From positions 1 to 34,373 of IMG/VR virus record IMGVR_UViG_3300043539_000241: a DNA stretch of 34,373 nt. The stretch is one strand, 5' to 3'. The notes beneath the pieces are model-generated. The model was not told where the DNA came from. It made no database searches and saw only the letters and a list, made by a program, of their open reading frames with translations. How positions within the stretch are numbered: the stretch's first letter is position 1; every line of letters starts with the position of its first letter. The stretch comes from a virus. This document shows, one piece after another, positions 3,243 through 33,530 of this stretch. The position numbers and the translations under genes were made by a program.

Positions 3243-4935
3243 GAAAACATACCAATCATTATTTAATCCAAAGACTAATAAGATAGATTTTAAAAAGGTT
3301 GATCTCATTGAGTCTTTGGATAATTCTCCATATTCAAAGCATTCTAATCCAAATATCGAATTTGAAAAAACCACTGAATTAGATACTATTCGTGAGCAAT
3401 ACTTTCGCGGAGAAATCTTTAATGTGGGAGATATAGTTGAATCCAATGATACATATTTGGAAATACTTAGTAGAGGTAGCAATTACCTTACAGTTACAGA
3501 TTCTGATGGTAATATACAACGCAAATGGCTTGTAGAAGTTAAGATGGTTGATGAAGAAACTAGTAATCTTTTAAAAGAAGATTTTGGTAATGTCACAACA
3601 AACCAAGTTACATATAAAGGATTTACTACTAAGAATTTTGATATAAGTAAAGAAGCAATCTTTGAATACACGAAATTAACTCAAACACCGAACATTGATC
3701 CCGTAGCATTGCTTAATGCTATTAAGGCAACTGACCAAGCATTCGGTATTCAAAAAAGCATCGTATCGGGTTCATTATCTATAGATGATTTCCATACATT
3801 CCAAAGAGCTCAACAAGTAGCCGTGGATATTCTTAAAAGATTGGGTGTCTATCTTCATCACGAAGATTACTTAATGAATTCATATCACAAAATGGAATTA
3901 GCAGTATCCGATTATGGAAGCCAAGATTCTTATTCAGCAGGAAAAATACAAGAAATGACATACTCAAGTTCAGACAAACTAAAAATTGCCAAGATTGTTG
4001 CTGGTACTCTTGGTGTTGATTCTGATTCTTCATCACCAGAAGAACTTATCAATAAGGCACTCAAAACACTTTCAAAGAATCCACTGAAATCTGATTCATT
4101 AAAGATTCTTAAAAATATGTTGAATACTGCCACTGAAGCAGGAATCATGTATGATAAGAAACTTATGCCGGCATTAGTAAAAGAAGATTCATCCAAATTA
4201 GTAAGCTCACAAAAAGTAAAAAGAGTTACTAATCCAGACCAAGTTCACCCAAACGATAGTGACGAAGATGACAATGGCGGTCCAGGAGATCAAGATTCCG
4301 ATGATTCAAAAAATACTCAAAGTGATTTTGACGATGAAAGCAAAGGTTCTCATAGAGTTGGAAGTACTATAGAACCAAATGGAGATAAAGACTCTTTACG
4401 CAGAATGAAAATCAAATATAAATTACATGAAGATTCTGAAGAAGATGATTCTGAAATGTCGGATGACGAATTGGATGATATGCTCAATTCCGTGTCTGAT
4501 GAAGATATTCTAAGTACCTATGACGACGATGAACTTCATGTAGTTGACGATGAAGGAAACCATGTTGCTCATGTTAAAGACCTTGATGGAATGAACGAAT
4601 CATATCTTACTGAAGTATTATCAAGAATGGAACGCATCAAAGCTGCTATAAGATTCAAACAGTCTCAAGGTAAACGTATGCGTAAGATGAAGATTGCTTT
4701 GCATACTCGTTCTAGTCCACAAAGAATTAATCATCGAGCGCGTAATGCCGCAATCAATGCACTTAAAGCAAAACTTGCAAGGAAACCTTTGAGTCAATTG
4801 ACCGTCCAAGAAAAAGAACGTATTGAAAGAATCGTAGCTAAGAAAAAGAAACTAATCGATAAAGCAGCAATGAAGTTAGTGCCTAAAATTAGAAAAATTG
4901 AAAATGCTCGTCTTCATCCAATCAACAGAGACTAA
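3241..4935 (+). CDS. Large late virion-associated protein, function unknown
   Basis: A 564-residue protein starting MKTYQ, the same five residues as T4 internal proteins. LIES near residue 23 fits a gp21-type (L/I)XE cleavage site. The middle (about 335-460) is a long Asp/Glu/Ser-rich disordered stretch. The C-terminal 100 residues are very basic (ERIKAAIRFKQ, KRMRKMKIALHTR, then RIVAKKKKLIDKAAMKLVPK) and resemble a Lys/Arg-rich helical domain seen in structural-gene regions of other T4-like phages. The split between an acidic middle and basic end suggests a core or DNA-associated head protein (inference). It is driven by the perfect late promoter at 3205 and followed 3 nt later by the Dps-like gene. 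Confidence 0.6.
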   Translation: MKTYQSLFNPKTNKIDFKKVDLIESLDNSPYSKHSNPNIEFEKTTELDTIREQYFRGEIFNVGDIVESNDTYLEILSRGSNYLTVTDSDGNIQRKWLVEVKMVDEETSNLLKEDFGNVTTNQVTYKGFTTKNFDISKEAIFEYTKLTQTPNIDPVALLNAIKATDQAFGIQKSIVSGSLSIDDFHTFQRAQQVAVDILKRLGVYLHHEDYLMNSYHKMELAVSDYGSQDSYSAGKIQEMTYSSSDKLKIAKIVAGTLGVDSDSSSPEELINKALKTLSKNPLKSDSLKILKNMLNTATEAGIMYDKKLMPALVKEDSSKLVSSQKVKRVTNPDQVHPNDSDEDDNGGPGDQDSDDSKNTQSDFDDESKGSHRVGSTIEPNGDKDSLRRMKIKYKLHEDSEEDDSEMSDDELDDMLNSVSDEDILSTYDDDELHVVDDEGNHVAHVKDLDGMNESYLTEVLSRMERIKAAIRFKQSQGKRMRKMKIALHTRSSPQRINHRARNAAINALKAKLARKPLSQLTVQEKERIERIVAKKKKLIDKAAMKLVPKIRKIENARLHPINRD

Positions 4936-4938
4936 AAC

Positions 4939-5376
4939 ATGGATAAGTTAATTGCAACCTCAAGAATAGTATTTGCTAACAACTTTGTGTTATACTTTAA
5001 AAGTGCTTCATATCATTGGAATGTAGAATCTTTCTATTTTCCACAATTCCACAATTTCTTTGGTGATTTCTATGCTGCCACTTATGGTGCTATAGATACA
5101 TTAGCTGAATTCATTAGAACTTTTGATGCTTATGCTCCTATTAGTTTGACTGAATTGACTAGATACAAAACAATCAATGAAGATATGGTTAAACCAGATA
5201 ATGTGAATGCTATGTTGGTTAATCTATATGAAGCTAATGTGTTGATGATTGAATCGTTGGAATCTGCATTTCAAGTATCACAAGAAGTAAATGAACAAGG
5301 TTATGCTAATTTCTTAGCAGACCGTTTAACAGCACATAAAAAGCATCAGTGGATGCTTAAATCAATTTTAAAATAA
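4939..5376 (+). CDS. Dps-like ferritin (mini-ferritin, DNA protection)
   Basis: A 145-residue four-helix protein with the Dps ferroxidase pattern. His26 (in YHWNV), His38 (QFH), Asp53 and Glu57 (in DTLAEF) sit at the same relative spacing as His51, His63, Asp78 and Glu82 of E. coli Dps. Position 42, matching E. coli Asp67, is Gly, but Asp43 follows. Dps proteins form 12-mers that oxidise and store Fe(II) and protect DNA from Fenton damage. The usual basic N-terminal DNA-binding tail is absent, so DNA binding is uncertain. The gene lies 3 nt after a late head-type gene, suggesting late expression and possibly virion association (inference). Confidence 0.82.
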   Translation: MDKLIATSRIVFANNFVLYFKSASYHWNVESFYFPQFHNFFGDFYAATYGAIDTLAEFIRTFDAYAPISLTELTRYKTINEDMVKPDNVNAMLVNLYEANVLMIESLESAFQVSQEVNEQGYANFLADRLTAHKKHQWMLKSILK

Positions 5377-10445: not shown

Positions 10446-10643
10446 TAATAAATTAGTATTGATAAGACCAGTTAATTTATTATACATCAAACCCAGTCAA
10501 AAGTAAACATTATTCCCTAAAATAATTCAACAGTTATCACTTTATAGGTGATGCTGTGTCACGAGTAAAATTTGCTAAATAGTGTGTACAAATATCAAAA
10601 ATATGATATAATATAATCTTTATTCTACTACAAAAGGTGATCT
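10446..10643 (+). other. 198-base intergenic region before the sugar operon
   Basis: It begins with an AT-only inverted repeat, TAATAAATTA (10446-10455) and TAATTTATTA (10473-10482), that overlaps the stop region. It could slow polymerase or stabilise a 3' end but has no GC stem. A weak ATCAC/GTGAT hairpin lies near 10537. The early promoter at 10584-10612 and an AAAGGTG ribosome-binding site (about 10633) finish the region. I see no tRNA or small gene in it. Confidence 0.45.
10584..10612 (+). promoter_or_regulatory. Early promoter of the glucosyltransferase operon
   Basis: GTGTAC (10584-10589), 17 nt ending TGA, TATAAT (10607-10612). It is the only visible promoter before the four overlapping or abutting genes at 10644-15018. 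Confidence 0.75.
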
Positions 10644-11750
10644 ATGAAATTAGCAGTATTGAAATTAGGCGCAAGAATTGTTTTTGGCCAAAAGGTTGGA
10701 TCAAGCGGAGGATCAGGTGAAGCTGCTTCTTTAATAGAAATGATGGTTGAAGGTGGATGTGAAGTTGACTGTTATACTAAGGTATTGTCTTCAGATCAAC
10801 AAAACAGATCAGTCAACGTGCTTAATATTGAAGACCATTATGAGAATATTACCAGTAATGTATACGATGCATTAGTAGTCATTAATGGCGCTGTTAATTT
10901 CTTTGGTGGCCAAGAAGACAGACCACAGATTCTTAATTATAAAGCAATAAACAACTTTAATGGAAAAATCATTTACTTGTACTGTGACCCGAATTTATCT
11001 CTAAAACAAATTTGGCCTTCTATTGAGAAGAAACCCTGGGCTTCAAATTGGAATAAGGAAGATATTAATATTACAAAGCCTATTAATGTGATTTCGCAAT
11101 CATACAATTTAGAAAAAAATAAAGCACTATTTGAGAAAAATGGATATCCTGTAGAATCTATTGTGCAATATGATTTCCAAAAATTCCCAATGATGAAACC
11201 AAGAGAAACTTCTATTCTAGGAAAGACTGTTGATTTGTCTTATGGAGGAACCTTTAGATCTGGTAGAAGAGAAAAGAAATTAATAGAATTCTATTTTGGA
11301 CTCCCAGAAGATATTTCGGTAGAAGTATTCGGTAAAATTAAAATTACGGACTTTAATGAGAAAAAAGTAACCGGATTACGTCCGCCAAAGTTTCTTCCTC
11401 CAGTCGATTATAATAATATGATTCAGAAAATGTCTTCTTCTAAAACCCATATTGCTATTGGTGATAATCAATACCCAGATTTTGAAATGATCTCTCAAAG
11501 AGTATATGAATCTATTATGGCGGGAACTTTATTATTCATTGATAATGAATTTGATAAGAATAAAAGAATTTTTGGAAACAATACTGAACTTTCCAATTTG
11601 CTATATATCAATGACAGAAATCAATTTGCAGATAGATTAAAATCATTGTCAGATTCTGATTACGAATCACTAATAGAACTTCAACATTCATGTGTAGATT
11701 TTAATAAATCAGAATATTGTTTAAACTTTGTAAAACTTTTGGAGGTATAA
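10644..11750 (+). CDS. DNA glucosyltransferase, homologue of T4 beta-glucosyltransferase
   Basis: A 368-residue homologue of T4 beta-glucosyltransferase (351 residues), which moves glucose from UDP-glucose to 5-hydroxymethylcytosine in DNA. Matching blocks include YDALVVINGAVNFFGG, IIYLYCDPNL...WP...PWA, ITKPINVISQ, SYGGTFRSGRRE and RVYESIMAG...FIDNEFD. The key T4 residues are kept: Glu22 as Glu26, the catalytic base Asp100 as Asp115, the UDP-sugar-contacting Arg191 and Arg195 as Arg205 and Arg209, and Glu272 as Glu289. A Gly-rich loop (SSGGSGE) replaces the T4 sequence before Glu26. The donor sugar may not be glucose, because the next three genes look like nucleotide-sugar enzymes. gp42 in this window would supply the acceptor base. 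Confidence 0.88.
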   Translation: MKLAVLKLGARIVFGQKVGSSGGSGEAASLIEMMVEGGCEVDCYTKVLSSDQQNRSVNVLNIEDHYENITSNVYDALVVINGAVNFFGGQEDRPQILNYKAINNFNGKIIYLYCDPNLSLKQIWPSIEKKPWASNWNKEDINITKPINVISQSYNLEKNKALFEKNGYPVESIVQYDFQKFPMMKPRETSILGKTVDLSYGGTFRSGRREKKLIEFYFGLPEDISVEVFGKIKITDFNEKKVTGLRPPKFLPPVDYNNMIQKMSSSKTHIAIGDNQYPDFEMISQRVYESIMAGTLLFIDNEFDKNKRIFGNNTELSNLLYINDRNQFADRLKSLSDSDYESLIELQHSCVDFNKSEYCLNFVKLLEV

Positions 11751-11751
11751 T

Positions 11752-12564
11752 ATGGAACAAGAAAAAGACGTATTTGATGACAGTTCAGCAGTATTTTTTA
11801 AAAATGGATTCCTTGGTAAAATAAAATTTTCCAGTGCATGGCATATTGCATTCATTAGCAGATATACTTCAACATGCACAGAAATTACCAAAATCAAAAG
11901 AAAAAATACTGAAGATTATGTTACTATATTAGATGTTGGGTGTGGTAATAAAACATTCTATCAATTTTGGTCTAAAAGTTTTGAAAGTTTATTGCGTCCC
12001 AGAGTGGATTACTTGGGTTTAGAATATGAACAATCTGTTGTAGATGAAGCAAATTCACCAACTGGAAGAGAATCTGTCAACAAATACAAAGTCATTCACT
12101 GTGATCTAAATACTACTTCATTTCATGACATTAAGCATCACGACAAATATGACGTAATTCTGTTGCAGGAAATTCTAGAACATATTCCAAAAGAAACTGC
12201 ATTGAAACTTATAAAAGAAGCATCTGAATTGGTATCAGATAGAGGATTTATTGTCATATCATCTCCTAATCCAAAAAAGGACGAAGGTCAAGAATTTGTA
12301 TGGCCAGAGAATCACATTCAAGAGTTTACTTTGGACGAAATGCATGATATGATAACCACTAATGGATTAAGTATCAGAAGAGTCAATGGGTGGTTAGGTA
12401 AAGCCAGATATTTTAAAAAGCATTTGAGTTCTAACAATATGGCTCTATATAACCAATTAAAAGGGATTTCGCAAGGATTCGCGGCAAGTACGATAGCATT
12501 TCTAAATCCAAAGATTGCAGAATGTTATATTTTTATTGCAGAAAAAAATAAGGGTATATTATGA
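11752..12564 (+). CDS. SAM-dependent methyltransferase (small-molecule type)
   Basis: A 270-residue class I methyltransferase. Motif I is ILDVGCGN (about 59-66), the acidic motif II region is YLGLEYE, and motif IV is DVILLQEILEHIP, followed by GFIVISSPNP. It lacks the NPPY or PC motifs of DNA base methyltransferases. The LQEILEHIP pattern is typical of enzymes acting on sugars and other small molecules. It starts 1 nt after the glucosyltransferase and ends overlapping the next gene by 4 nt. Methylation of the sugar attached to DNA or of its precursor is my inference; a host-glycan target is possible. Confidence 0.72.
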   Translation: MEQEKDVFDDSSAVFFKNGFLGKIKFSSAWHIAFISRYTSTCTEITKIKRKNTEDYVTILDVGCGNKTFYQFWSKSFESLLRPRVDYLGLEYEQSVVDEANSPTGRESVNKYKVIHCDLNTTSFHDIKHHDKYDVILLQEILEHIPKETALKLIKEASELVSDRGFIVISSPNPKKDEGQEFVWPENHIQEFTLDEMHDMITTNGLSIRRVNGWLGKARYFKKHLSSNNMALYNQLKGISQGFAASTIAFLNPKIAECYIFIAEKNKGIL

Positions 12565-14273
12565 AAATCGTAATATTTTCAGGTGGCACTGGTTCAGTTC
12601 AATTACAGAAAGGTCTATATGAAACATTTGGTAAAGATGTATTAGACTATACGGTCATTACAAACTTAGCGGATAACGGTCTTTCTACTGGAGAATGCAG
12701 AAAAGTTATGGATGGAAAAATTATGGGTCCGTCCGATTTAAGAAAGAATCAAATGCTAAGAGCAAAACTGGAAAATAGTATATCAGAAAAATTGTATGAA
12801 TTCCTAAATGACAGAATAACTATTTCTGCCGATGAAGTTCAATCGGTGCTTTTAGACAGAATCCATAAACTAGACATTGATATGTTTTATAGAGGTGTAT
12901 TAGCTTCTGGAGTGAATCAATTCTTTGATAGCCAGTTATCATCACAGATAGATTATATTGACTTTTCAATTTCTAATATCATTTATTCTGGAATAGCAAA
13001 GAAACATAACTATTCATTGGATTCTGCAGGAAAAGTATTTGAAGGAATATTAGACATTCCAGAGAATAGTGTAATTTCTAATACTGATTCTCCGATGTAT
13101 CTTATGGCTAAAACCCAATCTGGTTATATTATACATGACGAAGCTGATATAGTATCATGGAATAATCCTGATGATAAAATCGTAGATTGTTTCTTTGTTG
13201 ATAACCATAATAAGCCAGTAATTCCAGAATTATCAGAACTTTCGAAATCTGTAATATTATCAGCAGACATTATAATTTTTTCATCCGGGACTCAATGGTC
13301 ATCTCTTATTCCGACATATAAATCCATAGGATTCTCTGAAACTATATCAGAATCGAAAGCAAAGAAATATTTAATTCTTAATGCTAGTCAAGATGCTGAT
13401 ATGAAAGGTGTATCTGGTGACGAATTGATTAATATTCTTATGGGTTATTTACCAAAAGATACTACTATCATTTCTGCTTTAGACGGTGACCCTTTATTAA
13501 TTCCTGATTCGTATCAAAAAATCTCAGCTTTCTTACTTAATCAGGGTAAACACGACGGGAAGGCATTGGTAAAAACTATTTTTGACCACTATTATAATTA
13601 CCCAAAGATTAGTGACCAATACGTTTTCGATTATGATGATACTATTGTTGCTAGAGGCTCGCAGCACTCTAAAGTATCTAAATCCAATGTCAAAAGAGTT
13701 CAAGAACTTTATAATAAGACTAATAATGTTTGGATATCTACTGGAAATACTATCAATGCTTTGCATGGAAATTTTTCTAATATTAAAGCATTAGCAGATG
13801 GTGGTGTTAATCTATACAAATTTAATAAAGAAGGAATTCCGCAATTCGAAAAATGCCTAGATAATGATTTACTTTTCTCTAAAAATGATATAGAATATAT
13901 TACGGCAGATATTGTAGACTGTGGAATTGATATTACTAAAATCCAAATACGTGGAAAGGTAATGATTTCTATCAAACCAATATCTCCTGAATACAGACAT
14001 AGCATTAAATTATTATTAGAATCTAAACTAAGCAAATACGATCTATTAATTAGAATGTCTGGAAGAACAACGATTGACATTACAAAACCAAACTTGGATA
14101 AAATTTTAGCAACAGAAACTCTATTCGTTAATGATTTTACTTATATTGGTGATGAAGGTGAATCTGGCAATGACCACCAAATATCACAATGTGGACATTG
14201 CAATTTTATACCAGTTAAAGATGTCAAAGATACTAACATGTACTTAGCAATTCTATTGGGAAAAGATGATTAA
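12561..14273 (+). CDS. Fusion of CofD/YvcK-like domain with HAD (phosphomannomutase-like) phosphatase domain
   Basis: A 570-residue two-domain protein. Residues 1-335 match the CofD/YvcK fold: IFSGGTGSVQLQKGL, VITNLADNG, GPSDLRKN, then SSGTQWSSLIPTY and SKAKKYLILNA. CofD transfers a phosphorylated group in F420 synthesis, while YvcK binds UDP-sugars. Residues 350-570 are a HAD domain with motif I DYDDT (Asp357 and Asp359), STGNT as motif II and GDEGESGNDHQI (about 530-542). The last block resembles eukaryotic-type phosphomannomutase (GDxTxxGGNDxEI). It overlaps genes on both sides (4 and 8 nt). I infer a role in sugar-phosphate or nucleotide-sugar chemistry; no exact reaction can be read from sequence. 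Confidence 0.75.
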   Translation: MKIVIFSGGTGSVQLQKGLYETFGKDVLDYTVITNLADNGLSTGECRKVMDGKIMGPSDLRKNQMLRAKLENSISEKLYEFLNDRITISADEVQSVLLDRIHKLDIDMFYRGVLASGVNQFFDSQLSSQIDYIDFSISNIIYSGIAKKHNYSLDSAGKVFEGILDIPENSVISNTDSPMYLMAKTQSGYIIHDEADIVSWNNPDDKIVDCFFVDNHNKPVIPELSELSKSVILSADIIIFSSGTQWSSLIPTYKSIGFSETISESKAKKYLILNASQDADMKGVSGDELINILMGYLPKDTTIISALDGDPLLIPDSYQKISAFLLNQGKHDGKALVKTIFDHYYNYPKISDQYVFDYDDTIVARGSQHSKVSKSNVKRVQELYNKTNNVWISTGNTINALHGNFSNIKALADGGVNLYKFNKEGIPQFEKCLDNDLLFSKNDIEYITADIVDCGIDITKIQIRGKVMISIKPISPEYRHSIKLLLESKLSKYDLLIRMSGRTTIDITKPNLDKILATETLFVNDFTYIGDEGESGNDHQISQCGHCNFIPVKDVKDTNMYLAILLGKDD

Positions 14274-15018
14274 TTTAATTATTATAGCTGCTGGAAACGG
14301 CAAAAGAATGGGAAACATTAATGTTCCAAAAGTATTATATCCAGTAAATGGAGTTCCTAATTTAAAAAGAATTATTACTAATGCTATAGAGTCCGAAGTA
14401 TTTGACTCTATAGATTTAGTAATTAAAGATTCTGCAGTAAAAAGTTTTAAAGAATTTTTGGATAATAGTGAATTTGATATTAAAATAAATCTAATTCCTA
14501 TAAATTCGGGACTAGGAGATGGACATGCAATTCTTTCCATGTATAAGAATGCTCATCAATATAACAATTCTATATTGGTATGGGGCGATGTTTATATTGA
14601 TAGTCCAATGATATTCAAAGAATTGAAAGATGTTGGAAGTTCTACTGGTAATAACTTTTCAAGCGCAGTAATTCCGGTATGTACTGAAAAGAATCCTTAC
14701 GTTACTATATTGACTGATTCTAATATGAACGCATTATCAGCAGACTTCTCTAAACTTGGAGAAACTCATTTGGAAGGATTCCACGATCAGTCTATATTCT
14801 ATATCAATAACGATGTAATATATGATAGTCTTCAAAAAATGCATGAAGTGTTATGGAAAAATGGACAATACATTACTCAATCAAAAGAATTAAATTTCTT
14901 ACATATTCTTCATTATTTAAGAAATATTAATTACCCAGCAAATTGTTATATTACTGAGTACCCAACAAAGTCGTTTAATAGTATTGAAGAATTGACAAAA
15001 TTGGAAAATTCATTATGA
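14266..15018 (+). CDS. Sugar-1-phosphate nucleotidyltransferase-like protein
   Basis: A 250-residue protein of the NTP-transferase (GT-A fold) family. The N-terminal signature AAGNGKRMG...PKVLYPVNG (about 8-30) is the nucleotide-binding loop and catalytic Lys of enzymes such as GlmU and GDP-mannose pyrophosphorylase. VWGDVYID (about 105-112) carries the metal-binding Asp. It lacks a left-handed beta-helix domain, so it is a minimal enzyme. It overlaps the CofD-HAD gene by 8 nt and the zinc-finger gene by 4 nt. It would make an NDP-sugar, plausibly the donor for the glucosyltransferase homologue at 10644 (inference). Confidence 0.78.
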   Translation: MINLIIIAAGNGKRMGNINVPKVLYPVNGVPNLKRIITNAIESEVFDSIDLVIKDSAVKSFKEFLDNSEFDIKINLIPINSGLGDGHAILSMYKNAHQYNNSILVWGDVYIDSPMIFKELKDVGSSTGNNFSSAVIPVCTEKNPYVTILTDSNMNALSADFSKLGETHLEGFHDQSIFYINNDVIYDSLQKMHEVLWKNGQYITQSKELNFLHILHYLRNINYPANCYITEYPTKSFNSIEELTKLENSL

Positions 15019-15329
15019 TAAAAACCGATAAAAAATATATCCTATTGGGATCATCGAGACTTAGAAATTTTAAACAAGTTAATGATTCTGCTTGGAGATT
15101 CTCTTGCAATTATTGTGGTGATTCTGTAAAGAATCCAAAGAAGACCCGCGGAAATATATACATGAAACACCACAAATTTCTTTATAAGTGTTTTAACTGC
15201 GGAATTTCTAAATCTATTTCTGAATTCATTAAAGATTTGGATTCTAATTTGCATACAAAATATGAAATGGAAAATTATAAAGAAGGATCCTCAATCTCAC
15301 CAGATTTATCAATGTTCGGAGTAAAATGA
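15015..15329 (+). CDS. Zinc-finger protein
   Basis: A 104-residue protein with two Cys pairs, CNYC (near residue 31) and CFNC (near 58), in the frame FSCNYCGDSVKNPKKTRGNIY...KFLYKCFNCG. The spacing and the GDS...K.RG pattern resemble the primase-type zinc ribbon found in several T4-like phage proteins. The C-terminal 35 residues are acidic. It may contact DNA, but no catalytic domain is present. It overlaps the nucleotidyltransferase gene (ATGA-type), although its product looks unrelated to sugar metabolism. Confidence 0.6.
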   Translation: MIKTDKKYILLGSSRLRNFKQVNDSAWRFSCNYCGDSVKNPKKTRGNIYMKHHKFLYKCFNCGISKSISEFIKDLDSNLHTKYEMENYKEGSSISPDLSMFGVK

Positions 15330-18124: not shown

Positions 18125-18562
18125 ATGAAGAAATTATTATTACTATTAACATTAATCAGCACCTCGGTTTCGGCCGAGGTTTACAACTATCCTATTACTA
18201 GGGTCATTGACGGTGATACTGTCGAATTCAAAGCTGAATTCTTGCCTAAACCATTAAAGCCAGTGTTATCAATTCGCGTATTAGGAGTTGATACCCCAGA
18301 AAAAGGATTCCGTGCAAAGTGTCCAAGTGAAGCAGAAAAAGGTAAATCTGCGTCGGAATTTACTAAACGCCTAGTTGCAGAATCTAAAGTCCAACAGGTT
18401 TCTATTAAGGATTGGGATAAATACGGTGGTAGAGTATTGGGTGATGTTATTCTTGATGGCAAATCTCTATCAGAAGAACTAATAAAAAACGGATATGCTC
18501 GTTCATATCATGGTGAGAAAAAAGAATCTTGGTGCGGTATGACTACAGGGAAAGTAAAATGA
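18125..18562 (+). CDS. Secreted SNase-type nuclease (thermonuclease family)
   Basis: A 145-residue protein with a clear signal peptide (MKKLLLLLTLISTSVSA, cleavage after Ala17). The staphylococcal nuclease fold is supported by Asp31 (DGDTV), Arg51, Asp56 and Glu59 (RVLGVDTPE) and Arg103 (YGGRVLGD). The spacing of Arg51/Asp56/Glu59/Arg103 equals that of Arg35/Asp40/Glu43/Arg87 in the Staphylococcus enzyme. It should cut DNA or RNA with Ca2+ in the periplasm or outside the cell. Possible roles are degrading incoming rival phage DNA or scavenging nucleotides (inference). It starts 1 nt after nrdA and overlaps the next gene by 4 nt. Confidence 0.85.
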   Translation: MKKLLLLLTLISTSVSAEVYNYPITRVIDGDTVEFKAEFLPKPLKPVLSIRVLGVDTPEKGFRAKCPSEAEKGKSASEFTKRLVAESKVQQVSIKDWDKYGGRVLGDVILDGKSLSEELIKNGYARSYHGEKKESWCGMTTGKVK

Positions 18563-18708: not shown

Positions 18709-19145
18709 GTTGGACTCATAACGGAAAATTAGTAACCGAATTGCCAGAGTGCGAAGGCTTTGTCTACTTGATATCTAACAAGATTGATGGTAGACAGTAT
18801 ATCGGCAAGAAATTAGCAAAGTTTTCCAAAACGTCTATTAAGACTGTAGTACTGAAATCTGGTGAAAAGAAAAAGAAACGAGTAAAGACAAAGGTTGAAT
18901 CTGACTGGATGAAATACTGGTCATCATCAATTGAATTGCAACACGATGTTAAGACATTAGGTGAAGAAAATTTTACTCGTGAGATTATTCATTTCTGCCA
19001 AACCAAGGGTGAATGTTCGTACCTTGAAATGAAAGAACAGATCATAAACGAAGTACTAATACAACCAGACAAATGGTACAATGCCTTTGTTGGTGGTAAG
19101 ATTCATCGTAATCATGTAAAAAATTTATTTAAAGAGGTAAAGTAA
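18705..19145 (+). CDS. GIY-YIG-type endonuclease-like protein
   Basis: A 146-residue protein with GFVYLISNKIDGRQYIGKK (about 18-36), a GIY-YIG variant (VYL...YIG) with the usual following Lys. A Lys-rich loop and FTREIIHFC...YLEMKEQ complete the small nuclease fold, including a Glu in the metal-binding helix region. No homing-endonuclease DNA-binding domain is attached. Similar free-standing proteins are widespread in T4-like phages and are usually annotated as putative endonucleases; activity is untested here. Confidence 0.68.
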   Translation: MSWTHNGKLVTELPECEGFVYLISNKIDGRQYIGKKLAKFSKTSIKTVVLKSGEKKKKRVKTKVESDWMKYWSSSIELQHDVKTLGEENFTREIIHFCQTKGECSYLEMKEQIINEVLIQPDKWYNAFVGGKIHRNHVKNLFKEVK

Positions 19146-19633
19146 TGTTCCATGAAAGTCCGGAATTCATAAAGCATCTTGATAGATGGTTAGATATGAG
19201 TGAACAAGTAGATGCAAAATTTCTTAATACTAATAAGACAAAAATACCTGCAATGTTTAGAACATATACTAAATCATTATATCGAGGTTTAGTATTAAAT
19301 CAAACTGAACTGACTGCTTACCAAAAGACTGGTAAATTAACTTTACCAAAACATACATCATGGTCTAAAGATAAAAAGATTGCAATAAAATTTGTTGATG
19401 ATCCGCAATATAAAATAAGCGGTAGCGGCAGTATAAAACTTATTTTGACCAAATCCTTCACGCCTGCTAATATTATTCTTGACATTAATGCTTTATTTCT
19501 TTTCTATGGACAGTCAAAAATGATACAGTTAGGAATAGATGATATGAGTGCGGATAGTGCTATGAAGGAACAAGAAGTATTGATTGCATCAGGTATAAAA
19601 ATAACGCCCGCAGAAACTGAATTGTGGTTTTAA
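19145..19633 (+). CDS. Putative ADP-ribosyltransferase (Alt/Mod-like)
   Basis: A 162-residue protein with the R-S-E triad of arginine-type mono-ADP-ribosyltransferases: Arg47 in LYRGL, a TSWS stretch (Thr71-Ser74) in the STS position, and Glu142-Gln-Glu144 as the ExE motif in EQEVLIASG. T4 has three such enzymes (Alt, ModA, ModB) that modify host RNA polymerase and translation proteins. T4 Alt has the same order (VYRAQ...VSTSL...EAEVILPRG). The protein is close in size to ModA/ModB (about 200). No strong sequence identity is claimed; the assignment rests on motif order and spacing. Host targets are unknown. Confidence 0.65.
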   Translation: MFHESPEFIKHLDRWLDMSEQVDAKFLNTNKTKIPAMFRTYTKSLYRGLVLNQTELTAYQKTGKLTLPKHTSWSKDKKIAIKFVDDPQYKISGSGSIKLILTKSFTPANIILDINALFLFYGQSKMIQLGIDDMSADSAMKEQEVLIASGIKITPAETELWF

Positions 19634-28040: not shown

Positions 28041-28060
28041 TAATTTTTTTGGAGTTTAAT

Positions 28061-28465
28061 ATGAGTACAAATTTTGTAAAAGATATTTCTGACATGCACA
28101 CCAAGTTTGGTGTTAACACTACAGTTAATAAGTTTGATAAAGAAAGATTAACAGCATTTCTGGATTTTAGAATTGGGTGTTTGCAGGAAGAATTAGATGA
28201 ACTTAAACATGCTGAAAATGCTGATGATGCGGTAGATGCCTTAATAGATCTAATAGTATTCGCAGTAGGTACCTTAGATGTGTACCAGGTTGACTCTGTT
28301 AAAGCCTGGCAAAGAGTGTATGATGCTAATATTGTTAAAGAAGTAGGAATTAAGGAAGGTAGACCCAATCCTTTTGGATTACCCGATCTAATTAAACCAG
28401 AAGGTTGGGTTGCTCCATCACATGTAGATAATGTTGGTTTATTAGATATAGTGTTTGCGGATTGA
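28061..28465 (+). CDS. MazG-like nucleoside triphosphate pyrophosphohydrolase
   Basis: A 134-residue all-alpha NTP pyrophosphatase. The metal-binding pattern is visible: GCLQEELDELKHA, then DDAVDALIDLIVFAVGTLDV (E-x2-E-x-D-E-type followed by E/D-x2-D). The C-terminal KEGRPNPFGLPDLIKPEGW is typical of phage MazG-like proteins. In a hydroxymethylcytosine phage it could serve as the dCTPase/dUTPase (T4 gp56 role), since no gp56 relative is seen; that is inference. ATG 28061 follows GGAG at 28051-28054. Confidence 0.75.
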   Translation: MSTNFVKDISDMHTKFGVNTTVNKFDKERLTAFLDFRIGCLQEELDELKHAENADDAVDALIDLIVFAVGTLDVYQVDSVKAWQRVYDANIVKEVGIKEGRPNPFGLPDLIKPEGWVAPSHVDNVGLLDIVFAD

Positions 28466-30041: not shown

Positions 30042-30449
30042 ATGACTGAAGCAAAACGTAAATCTGTTGAAGTATTAGAAGAAGCAATTGCTCTTCAAAT
30101 TAAGAAAGGTAATGATTACCAGAATTCTGCATCAAGAGTAAGACAGGCAGATTACTATCCTCACGGAATCAATAGTATTTTAGATACTATTAATGCTAAA
30201 GTCTTACGAATGTTTTCTGTTATTGAAACAATGGAAGCGGGTGGATCTGTCAATTTTGAATCAATCGAGGATTCTGCTATCGATGGAATCAATTACTTAT
30301 CATTCTTAGTTTCATACATGAGAGGTGAAATCGATGGTCAACAACCTGATAGAGATATTTTCAATAAGACGGGTCAACAAAATCGTGCCTTAATTCCTAC
30401 TAAATTCAGAACACAAACTGGCGGCAATATTATTGGAGTAAACAAATAA
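30042..30449 (+). CDS. DUF1599-like (nucleotide modification-associated) protein
   Basis: A 135-residue helical protein with KKGNDYQNSASRVRQADYY, ILDTINAKVLRM and NFESIEDSAIDGINYLSFLVSYMRG. This is the pattern of DUF1599, which has been described as a nucleotide-modification-associated domain and is related to MazG/dUTPase folds. It starts at ATG 30042, 5 nt after GGAG, and its stop overlaps the gp42 start (TAATG). That coupling supports a role in hydroxymethyl-dCMP metabolism, such as sanitising the nucleotide pool (inference). Confidence 0.65.
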   Translation: MTEAKRKSVEVLEEAIALQIKKGNDYQNSASRVRQADYYPHGINSILDTINAKVLRMFSVIETMEAGGSVNFESIEDSAIDGINYLSFLVSYMRGEIDGQQPDRDIFNKTGQQNRALIPTKFRTQTGGNIIGVNK

Positions 30450-31117
30450 TGGAACAATACTCTGTAAAAGATATTAGAAATGAATTTAAGTCACTATTGG
30501 AAAATGACGAATTTGTAATAGACAAGACCGGTTGCAAAATGGTTGAAATTGCCGGAACATCATTTATTGCTAGTGAACCTACTATCTTTGGAACTCTTAA
30601 TGAAGACTATGCTAAAAGAGAAATAGAATGGTACAAATCCATGTCTCTTAACGTTAATGACATTCCAGGTGAAACTCCAGCAGTGTGGAAACAGGTTGCT
30701 GATGCAAATGGAATGATCAATTCTAATTATGGTTGGTGTGTTTATTCAAGAGAAAACCATTATCAATTCCAGAACGTACTTCAAGAATTAGTAAGAAATA
30801 GATTCTCTAGAAGAGCAATAATGATTTATACCCGGCCTTCTATTTGGGCCGAATTTGAAACCGTGGGAATGTCTGATTTTATTTGCACCAATACAGTTCA
30901 ATATCTTATTAGAAATAATAAACTTCACGCATTTGTACAAATGCGGTCAAATGATGCAATTTTTGGATATAAAAATGACTTATATTGGCAACAGCACGTC
31001 CATACTGAATTGCATGAATGTCTTAATGAGAGTGGAGTACAATGCGAAATCGGTGATATTATCTGGAATGCAACATCGCTTCATGTTTATGAAAAACATT
31101 TCCATTTGATAAAATAA
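30449..31117 (+). CDS. 42: Deoxycytidylate hydroxymethylase (gp42)
   Basis: A 222-residue close relative of T4 gp42, which makes 5-hydroxymethyl-dCMP from dCMP and methylene-tetrahydrofolate. Shared blocks include INSNYGW, SRRAIMIYTRPS, GMSDFICTNTVQYLIR and MRSNDAIFGYKND. Catalytic Cys146 and Asp177 are 31 residues apart, as are T4 Cys148 and Asp179. Asp in place of the thymidylate-synthase Asn marks cytosine-specific enzymes. It ends at HVYEKHFHLIK, about 24 residues before the T4 end. Its presence implies hydroxymethylcytosine in the phage DNA and supplies the acceptor for the glucosyltransferase at 10644. Confidence 0.93.
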   Translation: MEQYSVKDIRNEFKSLLENDEFVIDKTGCKMVEIAGTSFIASEPTIFGTLNEDYAKREIEWYKSMSLNVNDIPGETPAVWKQVADANGMINSNYGWCVYSRENHYQFQNVLQELVRNRFSRRAIMIYTRPSIWAEFETVGMSDFICTNTVQYLIRNNKLHAFVQMRSNDAIFGYKNDLYWQQHVHTELHECLNESGVQCEIGDIIWNATSLHVYEKHFHLIK

Positions 31118-31201: not shown

Positions 31202-31468
31202 ATGAGCAGCAATCCAAGATCTTCTAAAAATTATGTTACCACTGTCAAAATGACCAACCCAGTTGACCGAGTATTTGTTGAACAGTTACGCCAATATATT
31301 AATGAAACAAACCATCTTCGTAAAGTCAAACAAAGAGTAGTTCTTCGTGGTAGACTAGGCCATGATAATCCCGCGGCTCCTTACTATTATAACCAACCAA
31401 CATGGTTCTATAACGTTAAAATTCAGCACTCTGAAAGATCTGATGTGTATATTTACGAACGAAGATAA
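31202..31468 (+). CDS. Small early protein, unknown
   Basis: An 88-residue basic protein (QRVVLRGRLGHDNPAA, then YYYNQPTWFYNVKI). AGGAATTT precedes the ATG. It overlaps the dCMP deaminase start by one base (TAATG). No family is recognised. Confidence 0.55.
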   Translation: MSSNPRSSKNYVTTVKMTNPVDRVFVEQLRQYINETNHLRKVKQRVVLRGRLGHDNPAAPYYYNQPTWFYNVKIQHSERSDVYIYERR

Positions 31469-31914
31469 TGATGGAAAACAAATGGAATAATAGATTCATG
31501 GACATGGCGAAAGCTGTGTCCTTATGGTCCAAAGACCCCAGTACTAAAGTCGGTGCGGTTGCAGTAGGAAGCAAAAAACAAATCTTAGCTACTGGGTTCA
31601 ATGGTTTTCCAAGAGGAATATCTGATACTATTGAGAGATTAGAAAATCGTGAAATTAAGTATGACTATATTGTACATGCTGAAAAGAATCTAATCTATAA
31701 TGCTTCATATACAGGAACATCATTAGATGGAGCAGCAATATATGTGTATGGACTTCCAGTATGTCTTGAATGCGCCAAGGGAATTATTCAAGTTGGAATT
31801 AGTGAGATTTACGTAAGTAAAGAATGTCTAATGTCTAAACCAAATTGGTATGACTCTTGGCTTAAATCAAAAGCTATGTTTGAAGAAGTTGGGTTATTCG
31901 TAGATTTAGTTTGA
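31468..31914 (+). CDS. cd: dCMP deaminase
   Basis: A 148-residue zinc enzyme. His70-Ala-Glu72 (VHAEKN) supplies a zinc ligand and the proton shuttle, and Cys99 and Cys102 (PVCLEC) complete the site. DPSTKVGAV and GFNGFPRG are the usual N-terminal motifs. It converts dCMP to dUMP for thymidylate synthase at the window's end, balancing dCMP between dUMP and the hydroxymethylase. ATG 31471 is an alternative start. It is short compared with T4 Cd (193). Confidence 0.92.
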   Translation: MMENKWNNRFMDMAKAVSLWSKDPSTKVGAVAVGSKKQILATGFNGFPRGISDTIERLENREIKYDYIVHAEKNLIYNASYTGTSLDGAAIYVYGLPVCLECAKGIIQVGISEIYVSKECLMSKPNWYDSWLKSKAMFEEVGLFVDLV

Positions 31915-33342: not shown

Positions 33343-33530
33343 GAAGATTTAAGTTAAACGCGGGTATCCATTTGATGGAAGAATCAGATGATGGTTATTG
33401 GGTAAGATACATAGATTTGGAACCAATCGTAAAAGCAATAGCATCAGGCAATACTGATGACTATGGCGATTTAATTATTCCGGTAGAAAAAGTACAAATA
33501 CTTTTAGATTTTGCACAGGTAAAGCGATGA
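33339..33530 (+). CDS. Small phage protein, unknown
   Basis: A 63-residue protein (MRRFKLNAGIHLMEESDDGY, then VRYIDLEPIVKAI and IIPVEKVQILLDF). It overlaps the preceding and following genes by 4 nt each (ATGA), so it is translated in a coupled run into thymidylate synthase. No family is recognised. Confidence 0.6.
   Translation: MRRFKLNAGIHLMEESDDGYWVRYIDLEPIVKAIASGNTDDYGDLIIPVEKVQILLDFAQVKR

Follow-up and report, generated by a model that had tools for sequence, protein, structure and literature searches.

The DNA analysed here, referred to below as the window, is an IMG/VR virus record (IMGVR_UViG_3300043539_000241) of 34,373 bases. On its plus strand, positions 10644-15018 carry a unit of four open reading frames (ORFs), coding for proteins of 368, 270, 570 and 250 aa and joined, in that order, by a 1-nt gap, a 4-nt overlap and an 8-nt overlap. 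The products are a homologue of the T4-type DNA beta-glucosyltransferase (BGT; 10644..11750), a class I S-adenosylmethionine (SAM) methyltransferase (MT; 11752..12564), a fusion of a GlmR/YvcK domain of the CofD fold with a phosphomannomutase (PMM)-like HAD-IIB domain (12561..14273), and a sugar-1-phosphate nucleotidyltransferase (NTase; 14266..15018). The ORF coordinates and family matches bear out the four-gene arrangement and the enzyme types claimed by an earlier note on this DNA. Here, we examine these genes as a DNA-glycosylation cassette that probably makes its own sugar donor.

The earlier note had described a four-gene operon driven by one early promoter. A fifth gene on the same strand, coding for a 104-aa primase-like zinc-ribbon protein (15015..15329), shares 4 nt with the end of the NTase gene, stop codon included, and therefore the transcription unit may exceed four genes; the zinc-ribbon gene is probably co-transcribed with the unit while lying outside the conserved cassette. 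The promoter claim comes down to a match in a consensus scan, TGTACA-16-TATAAT with a TG-extended -10, on the plus strand upstream of BGT (10585..10612), and such matches occurred in the region at chance level (37 found against 32 ± 5 expected). A single promoter at this site driving the unit is plausible.

The BGT homologue matched PF09198 (T4-Gluco-transf) at 2.7e-30 and PHROG 7922 at 2.1e-62, and a profile built from it and its relatives retrieved T4 BGT as the sole PDB match (1bgt, 4.2e-53). In the T4 structures, E22, D100, R191, R195, D258, Y261, R269 and E272 are the catalytic and UDP-phosphate-binding set of the enzyme. All eight were identical in the window protein when it was aligned to T4 BGT, in keeping with the claim that the homologue retains all key catalytic residues.

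In the fusion protein, the GlmR/YvcK part spans residues ~1-330 and the PMM-like HAD-IIB part residues ~350-565. Pfam matches were to CofD (5.4e-21) and HAD; the match to TIGR01826 (1.9e-16) fell under the curated cut-off, and a PDB profile match for the N-terminal domain was of GlmR type (2.7e-16). An AlphaFold2 model built with relatives had a pLDDT of 87.8. When the N-terminal domain was searched with Foldseek, GlmR-type structures scored TMt 0.71-0.80 (GlmR-family 2ppv, 6e-14, TMt 0.75; 2o2z, TMt 0.80), whereas CofD/FbiA structures were weaker at about 0.60-0.68 (3c3d 0.66, 6uw3 0.65). Thus GlmR-type structures were better by sequence as well as fold, and assignment of the domain as CofD itself (LPPG:Fo phospholactate transferase) was rejected. 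The C-terminal domain found alpha-phosphoglucomutases and PMMs, the best mutase being the alpha-phosphoglucomutase 4bnd (1.1e-9), and sequence profiles agreed. The 'CofD/YvcK-HAD fusion' of the earlier note could therefore be refined, by sequence and Foldseek, to an N-terminal domain nearest GlmR/YvcK and a PMM-like HAD domain.

Residue conservation in the fusion was counted over 33 phage and bacterial members. D38, N274, D357, D359, T361, K514 and R479 were invariant and R464 was kept in 32. PMM-like motifs were all present, namely the DxDxT nucleophile, the motif III Lys (K514), two substrate-phosphate Arg and G(D/N)E..G(N)(D/E). Since these catalytic residues do not vary, both domains look catalytically alive. 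In GlmR of L. monocytogenes, the triple mutant of D40, D41 and N198 is about 100-fold less active. The first Asp of the D40/D41 pair is D38 of the fusion (33/33), and the second position is Asn in 31 of the 33 members, as it also is in S. epidermidis 2ppv; N274 could be matched to N198 by region only. The fusion showed no recognisable DNA-binding part. GlmR (YvcK, UPF0052) resembles the N-terminal domain in fold and sequence, and differs in being a stand-alone protein, whereas here the domain shares one protein with a PMM-like domain and has an NTase as partner. In Listeria, Staphylococcus and Bacillus, GlmR is reported to form UDP-N-acetylglucosamine (UDP-GlcNAc) from UTP and GlcNAc-1-phosphate (PMC10128056).

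The NTase matched NTP_transf_3 in Pfam at 2.1e-7, and its profile matched 4jis (7.3e-12) and also GlmU in the PDB. Its AlphaFold2 model (pLDDT 92.4) found HddC, UDP-glucose pyrophosphorylase (UGP), GlmU and RmlA in Foldseek, each at about 1e-14, and the protein carries the AAGxGxRMG..PK signature of sugar nucleotidyltransferases. These results agree with the sugar-1-phosphate nucleotidyltransferase that had been claimed; CofC/MobA/LicC were rejected as its identity, since sugar-1-phosphate nucleotidyltransferases came first in the structure search and CofC was not among the matches listed. The MT matched Methyltransf_31 (2.8e-10), and its nearest NCBIfam entry was UbiG (1.9e-10, under the cut-off).

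IMG/VR was queried with the fusion, the NTase and BGT, both as single sequences and as alignments, and local profiles served to score the gene neighbourhoods. In 26 different lineages of BGT, which share 37-85% identity with one another, the fusion and the NTase (hereafter, the pair) lay beside BGT; the contigs ranged from a few kb to 429 kb, with LR756500 (462 kb, of the lineage of the 429-kb contig) in addition. The usual order of this trio was BGT-fusion-NTase; in LR756500/L010 it was rearranged to fusion-NTase-hydroxymethylase-BGT, with the genes still clustered. Pairwise identities of the three proteins co-varied (Mantel r 0.89-0.92, p 0.0001, 20 lineages). The earlier note had proposed a search for the same four-gene order in other phages: the order of BGT, fusion and NTase recurred in diverged phages, but MT was found in only five of the 26 lineages (the window, L004, L043, L066 and L107). 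MT was therefore dropped as a core member of the cassette and is better seen as a tailoring or accessory enzyme; it probably O-methylates the sugar or its precursor in some lineages, the window included.

The surroundings of the trio are those of nucleotide modification. A dCMP hydroxymethylase gene lay within about 10 kb of it in most lineages; on the 345-kb contig L004 the thymidylate-synthase-family gene was located away from the trio. Genes for dTMP-kinase-like, guanylate-kinase-like and MazG-like proteins recurred around it, and about 10 related phage lineages have the homologue of the window's MazG-like gene within the cassette itself. No other glycosyltransferase recurred beside the phage pair. 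In the window, the plus strand carries genes for a MazG-like nucleotide pyrophosphohydrolase, possibly a dCTPase (28049..28465), the gp42 homologue (30449..31117) and a dCMP deaminase (31468..31914; PHROG 174, 5.8e-37). Asp at T4 position 179 was kept in the gp42 homologue and in all related phage homologues aligned, whereas the window's own second thymidylate synthase (at 33527, at the window end) has Asn there. The gp42 homologue is thus a true dCMP hydroxymethylase, and the gp42 that the earlier note had placed elsewhere in the window is indeed present.

Four phages (L106, L109, L110 and L117) have a BGT of the same clade and have kept the dTMP-kinase-like gene but lack both genes of the pair, and no fusion was found anywhere in their contigs (152-332 kb). 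The guanylate-kinase-like gene was kept in L106 and L110, the two checked for it. Hence the two genes are gained or lost together, and the tree suggests that these four may descend from pair-bearing phages. The domains are cut differently in L105 (3924-6288), where a lone GlmR domain (338 aa) accompanies a fusion of the HAD mutase with the NTase (444 aa), a link that places mutase and NTase in a single pathway. L066 has, between a methyltransferase and BGT, a stand-alone glucosamine-1-phosphate acetyltransferase of the GlmU C-terminal type (3691-4563; TIGR01173, 8.4e-71), a hint at a sugar other than plain glucose.

The eight T4 residues named above were identical in all 26 trio BGTs, save E272, identical in 25, and the enzyme is predicted to transfer a sugar to hydroxymethylcytosine (hmC) in DNA. 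K16-T17-V18 near Glu22 and T99/I101 around Asp100 of T4 BGT differ from the trio clade. Eighteen BGT positions separate the trio clade from T4-type enzymes. Most of them are also present in the no-pair kin and so reflect ancestry, and as a set they were rejected as donor determinants. Among the 18, V18 (and I162 and W341) split with the presence of the pair. At V18, four residues before Glu22, all 26 BGTs with the pair have Gly, and all 13 without it have Val or Thr; these 13 include the four no-pair kin, which share most other clade-specific residues. V18 is therefore a candidate donor-loop position, and its change to Gly hints at a donor other than plain glucose.

In a bacterial scan with one genome per species, we found 12 loci with the pair, mostly in metagenome-assembled genomes (MAGs) of Firmicutes and one in a Bacteroidales MAG. 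The order was reversed, NTase then fusion, and the two were adjacent in 12 of 12 loci (gaps of -53 to +75 nt). All 11 loci with flanks lay among surface-polysaccharide genes (GT2 or GT8, Wzx-type flippases, Wzz, NeuB, epimerase), usually with the pair beside an ordinary glycosyltransferase; none of the three bacterial genomes searched for BGT had one. Phage and bacterial fusions fell into separate groups. In a scan at phylum level around the L070 genome, only three of 392 genomes had the fusion, so the bacterial form is rare. Since a nearby glycosyltransferase is common to bacteria and phages, the pair fits a donor-making role: most likely it makes an activated sugar for whichever glycosyltransferase accompanies it, which in the phages is the DNA BGT. 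The earlier note had named, as a finding that would count against its reading, that the last three genes be tied in every case to surface glycans rather than to glucosyltransferases; we found the pair in surface-glycan loci in bacteria, but beside BGT in phages.

On this evidence we consider it likely that the unit works as a DNA-glycosylation cassette supplying its own sugar donor. The phage, with the hydroxymethylase seen in its sequence, would replace cytosine by hmC. The PMM-like domain would interconvert or trim a sugar phosphate to give a sugar-1-phosphate, which the NTase, with or through the GlmR-like domain, would turn into a nucleotide sugar, and the BGT homologue would move the sugar from there onto hmC in DNA. 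The fold matches, together with the UDP-GlcNAc synthesis of GlmR relatives, show that the pieces fit the making of an activated sugar. The core idea of a phage-made nucleotide sugar, as the earlier note had put it for a BGT acting on hmC, has strong genomic support in the order conserved among diverged phages, the hydroxymethylase usually nearby, the presence or absence of the pair as a unit and the HAD-NTase fusion of L105. The note's reading as a whole is supported in part, MT being accessory and a plain supply of UDP-glucose also fitting.

We lean slightly towards a sugar other than plain glucose, one candidate being an amino or N-acyl hexose. A bolder form of the proposal is that hmC bears a sugar not yet seen on DNA, for example a GlcNAc-like, N-acylated amino hexose that some lineages O-methylate, or one joined by a phosphodiester via the GlmR/CofD domain, with a donor pathway shared with bacterial surface-glycan loci and a BGT loop opened by the Val-to-Gly change to admit a bulkier sugar. 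This we regard as possible, somewhat short of an even chance. Several points weigh against a self-made donor and a non-glucose sugar. The approximately unbiased (AU) test of whether the no-pair kin are nested within the trio clade gave p 0.48 for the trio held together. The V18 association rests on few independent events, the no-pair kin being one clade. L038, a fragment on a 28-kb contig, has the pair with no BGT in view. The GlmR-like domain and the NTase are two possible nucleotidyl-transfer domains, redundant on the proposed scheme, and folds like those of alpha-phosphoglucomutase and UGP would also suit a simple UDP-glucose supply. All the chemical steps, as well as the identity of the sugar, are what we infer.

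One rival is an ordinary supply of donor, in which the mutase takes glucose-6-phosphate to glucose-1-phosphate and the NTase, acting as UGP, boosts UDP-glucose, leaving the DNA with the same plain beta-glucosyl-hmC that T4 has. Duplication of host metabolism is common among phages, 4bnd was the best Foldseek mutase for the C-terminal domain, UGPs were among the top NTase folds, and E22 and D100, which contact UDP-glucose, are kept in BGT. We nevertheless think this account unlikely because it leaves the GlmR domain, the MT of five lineages and the GlmU-type acetyltransferase of L066 unexplained, because bacteria expected to own a source of UDP-glucose still keep the pair in variable glycan loci, and because the Gly at V18 tracks the pair. 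A somewhat more doubtful account is chemistry like that of CofC and CofD, with the NTase activating a phosphorylated compound and the CofD-fold domain placing it as a phosphodiester on the hydroxyl of hmC or glucosyl-hmC, a phospho-sugar as in phage SP-15. The N-terminal domain does match CofD/FbiA folds (3c3d, 6uw3), the NTase always neighbours the fusion, and SP-15 shows that phage DNA can carry a sugar linked by a phosphodiester (PMC5977210). Yet the domain is nearer GlmR/YvcK than CofD, the NTase is of the sugar-1-phosphate type with CofC not among its listed matches, and the fusion is without a recognised DNA-binding part.

That the pair acts on host surface glycans or on host UDP-GlcNAc metabolism, and stands beside BGT for shared early expression only, we judge very improbable. 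Such a role would suit the surface-polysaccharide loci in which the bacterial pair is found, but in phages the neighbours of the pair are a DNA glucosyltransferase and genes of nucleotide modification, with no other recurrent glycosyltransferase at its side, and both fusion and NTase diverge together with BGT.

Compared with known systems, the self-supplied cassette we favour shares with the T4 pathway (gp42 and b-gt) a dCMP hydroxymethylase and a GT63 BGT with the same catalytic set; T4, in contrast, uses host UDP-glucose, without linked sugar-activation genes. RB69 has an arabinosyl-hmC module (ORF003c, ORF052/053, ORF055), with which the phage is proposed to produce the nucleotide sugar itself (PMC6024577). 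It resembles the present case in hmC and in a proposed donor-making set encoded by the phage, but its glycosyltransferase family and enzymes (SIS isomerase, ORF052) are different. By blastp, no similarity to RB69 ORF051-055 was found in the screened phage cassette loci, nor was the SIS family (sugar isomerase or GlmS) found in 10 phage records; with homologues of ORF052, ORF053 and ORF055 not found in the phage loci, an RB69-type nucleotide-arabinose module was rejected. Shewanella phage Thanatos, in the portions of its report drawn on here, has a cytosine deoxypentose (TH1_060/TH1_063) and a phage UDP-xylose pyrophosphorylase shown in vitro, and so likewise a phage-encoded sugar nucleotidyltransferase for a cytosine sugar; those portions liken TH1_060 to RB69 ORF053_052 and mention neither BGT nor a CofD/PMM fusion, and it is by this description that Thanatos is set apart (PMC12838424). 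Bacillus phage SP-15 carries a hypermodified uracil with glucose and a phosphodiester-linked glucuronolactone, and a sugar-metabolism cluster like bacterial cell-wall genes is used there on DNA (PMC5977210). It differs in being thymine/uracil-based, in its teichuronic/teichoic-type enzymes and in a sugar that is partly phosphodiester-linked. RB69 and Thanatos are precedents for a phage-made donor, shown or proposed, in cytosine glycosylation. The present cassette would work like those, but it uses the T4 BGT family and has no detectable enzyme in common with RB69 ORF051-055. We found no description of the BGT, GlmR-PMM and NTase combination, or of CofD/PMM with phage DNA modification, in the open-licence literature; as the search was confined to such papers, this is weak evidence of novelty. 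The cassette is real and conserved and is probably functional, and the sugar itself has a fair chance of being new.

Homologues of RB69 ORF052 and ORF055 (arabinose-5-phosphate isomerase) were seen in two bacterial pair loci, L069 (8359-10829) and L076 (11798-14353), in both of which a small HAD-like protein follows them; a third, L070 (1880-2845), has a homologue of ORF055 only. Enzymes from one type of bacterial locus are thus similar to both phage modules, which gives a lead on where the arabinosyl-hmC module came from. In Enterococcus phage VFW (L088, 6830-9443), which is non-T4-like, a T4-type BGT lies near a thymidylate synthase and a 'nucleotide sugar synthetase-like' gene, possibly another self-supplied DNA glycosylation cassette.

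Elsewhere in the window, a UvsX recombinase gene (1-931) is apparently split by a split intein, as judged by eye, the recombinase part being confirmed: ORF 302-931 opens with an intein C-terminal-like segment (...DYILKNGIISHN, then T...) and continues with the C-terminal part of UvsX, while another ORF upstream (1-348) ends before it. A Dps/ferritin-like protein (4939-5376) was also recognised by eye. Positions 18125-18562 encode an SNase-like nuclease (PF00565, 4.2e-15) with an apparent signal peptide. At 19145-19633, a 162-aa protein matching PHROG 27460, a family of unknown function, has an R / S-x-S / E-x-E pattern (YRG, TSWS, KEQEVL) that suggests an ADP-ribosyltransferase of the T4 Alt/ModA type.

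Phage DNA whose cytosine carries a sugar is protected against restriction and some CRISPR systems; hosts counter with sugar-specific enzymes, namely GmrSD-type nucleases and the Brig1 glycosylase (PMC13216743). If the proposed donor synthesis is true, large environmental phages would bear a class of DNA sugar not yet measured and perhaps missed by bacterial defences, and activated-sugar pathways would be common to bacterial surface-glycan loci and phage DNA modification. It would also offer a possible function for the GlmR-PMM fusion, of which no description was found in the open-licence literature, and the BGT position of T4 V18 provides a defined residue for probing donor specificity.

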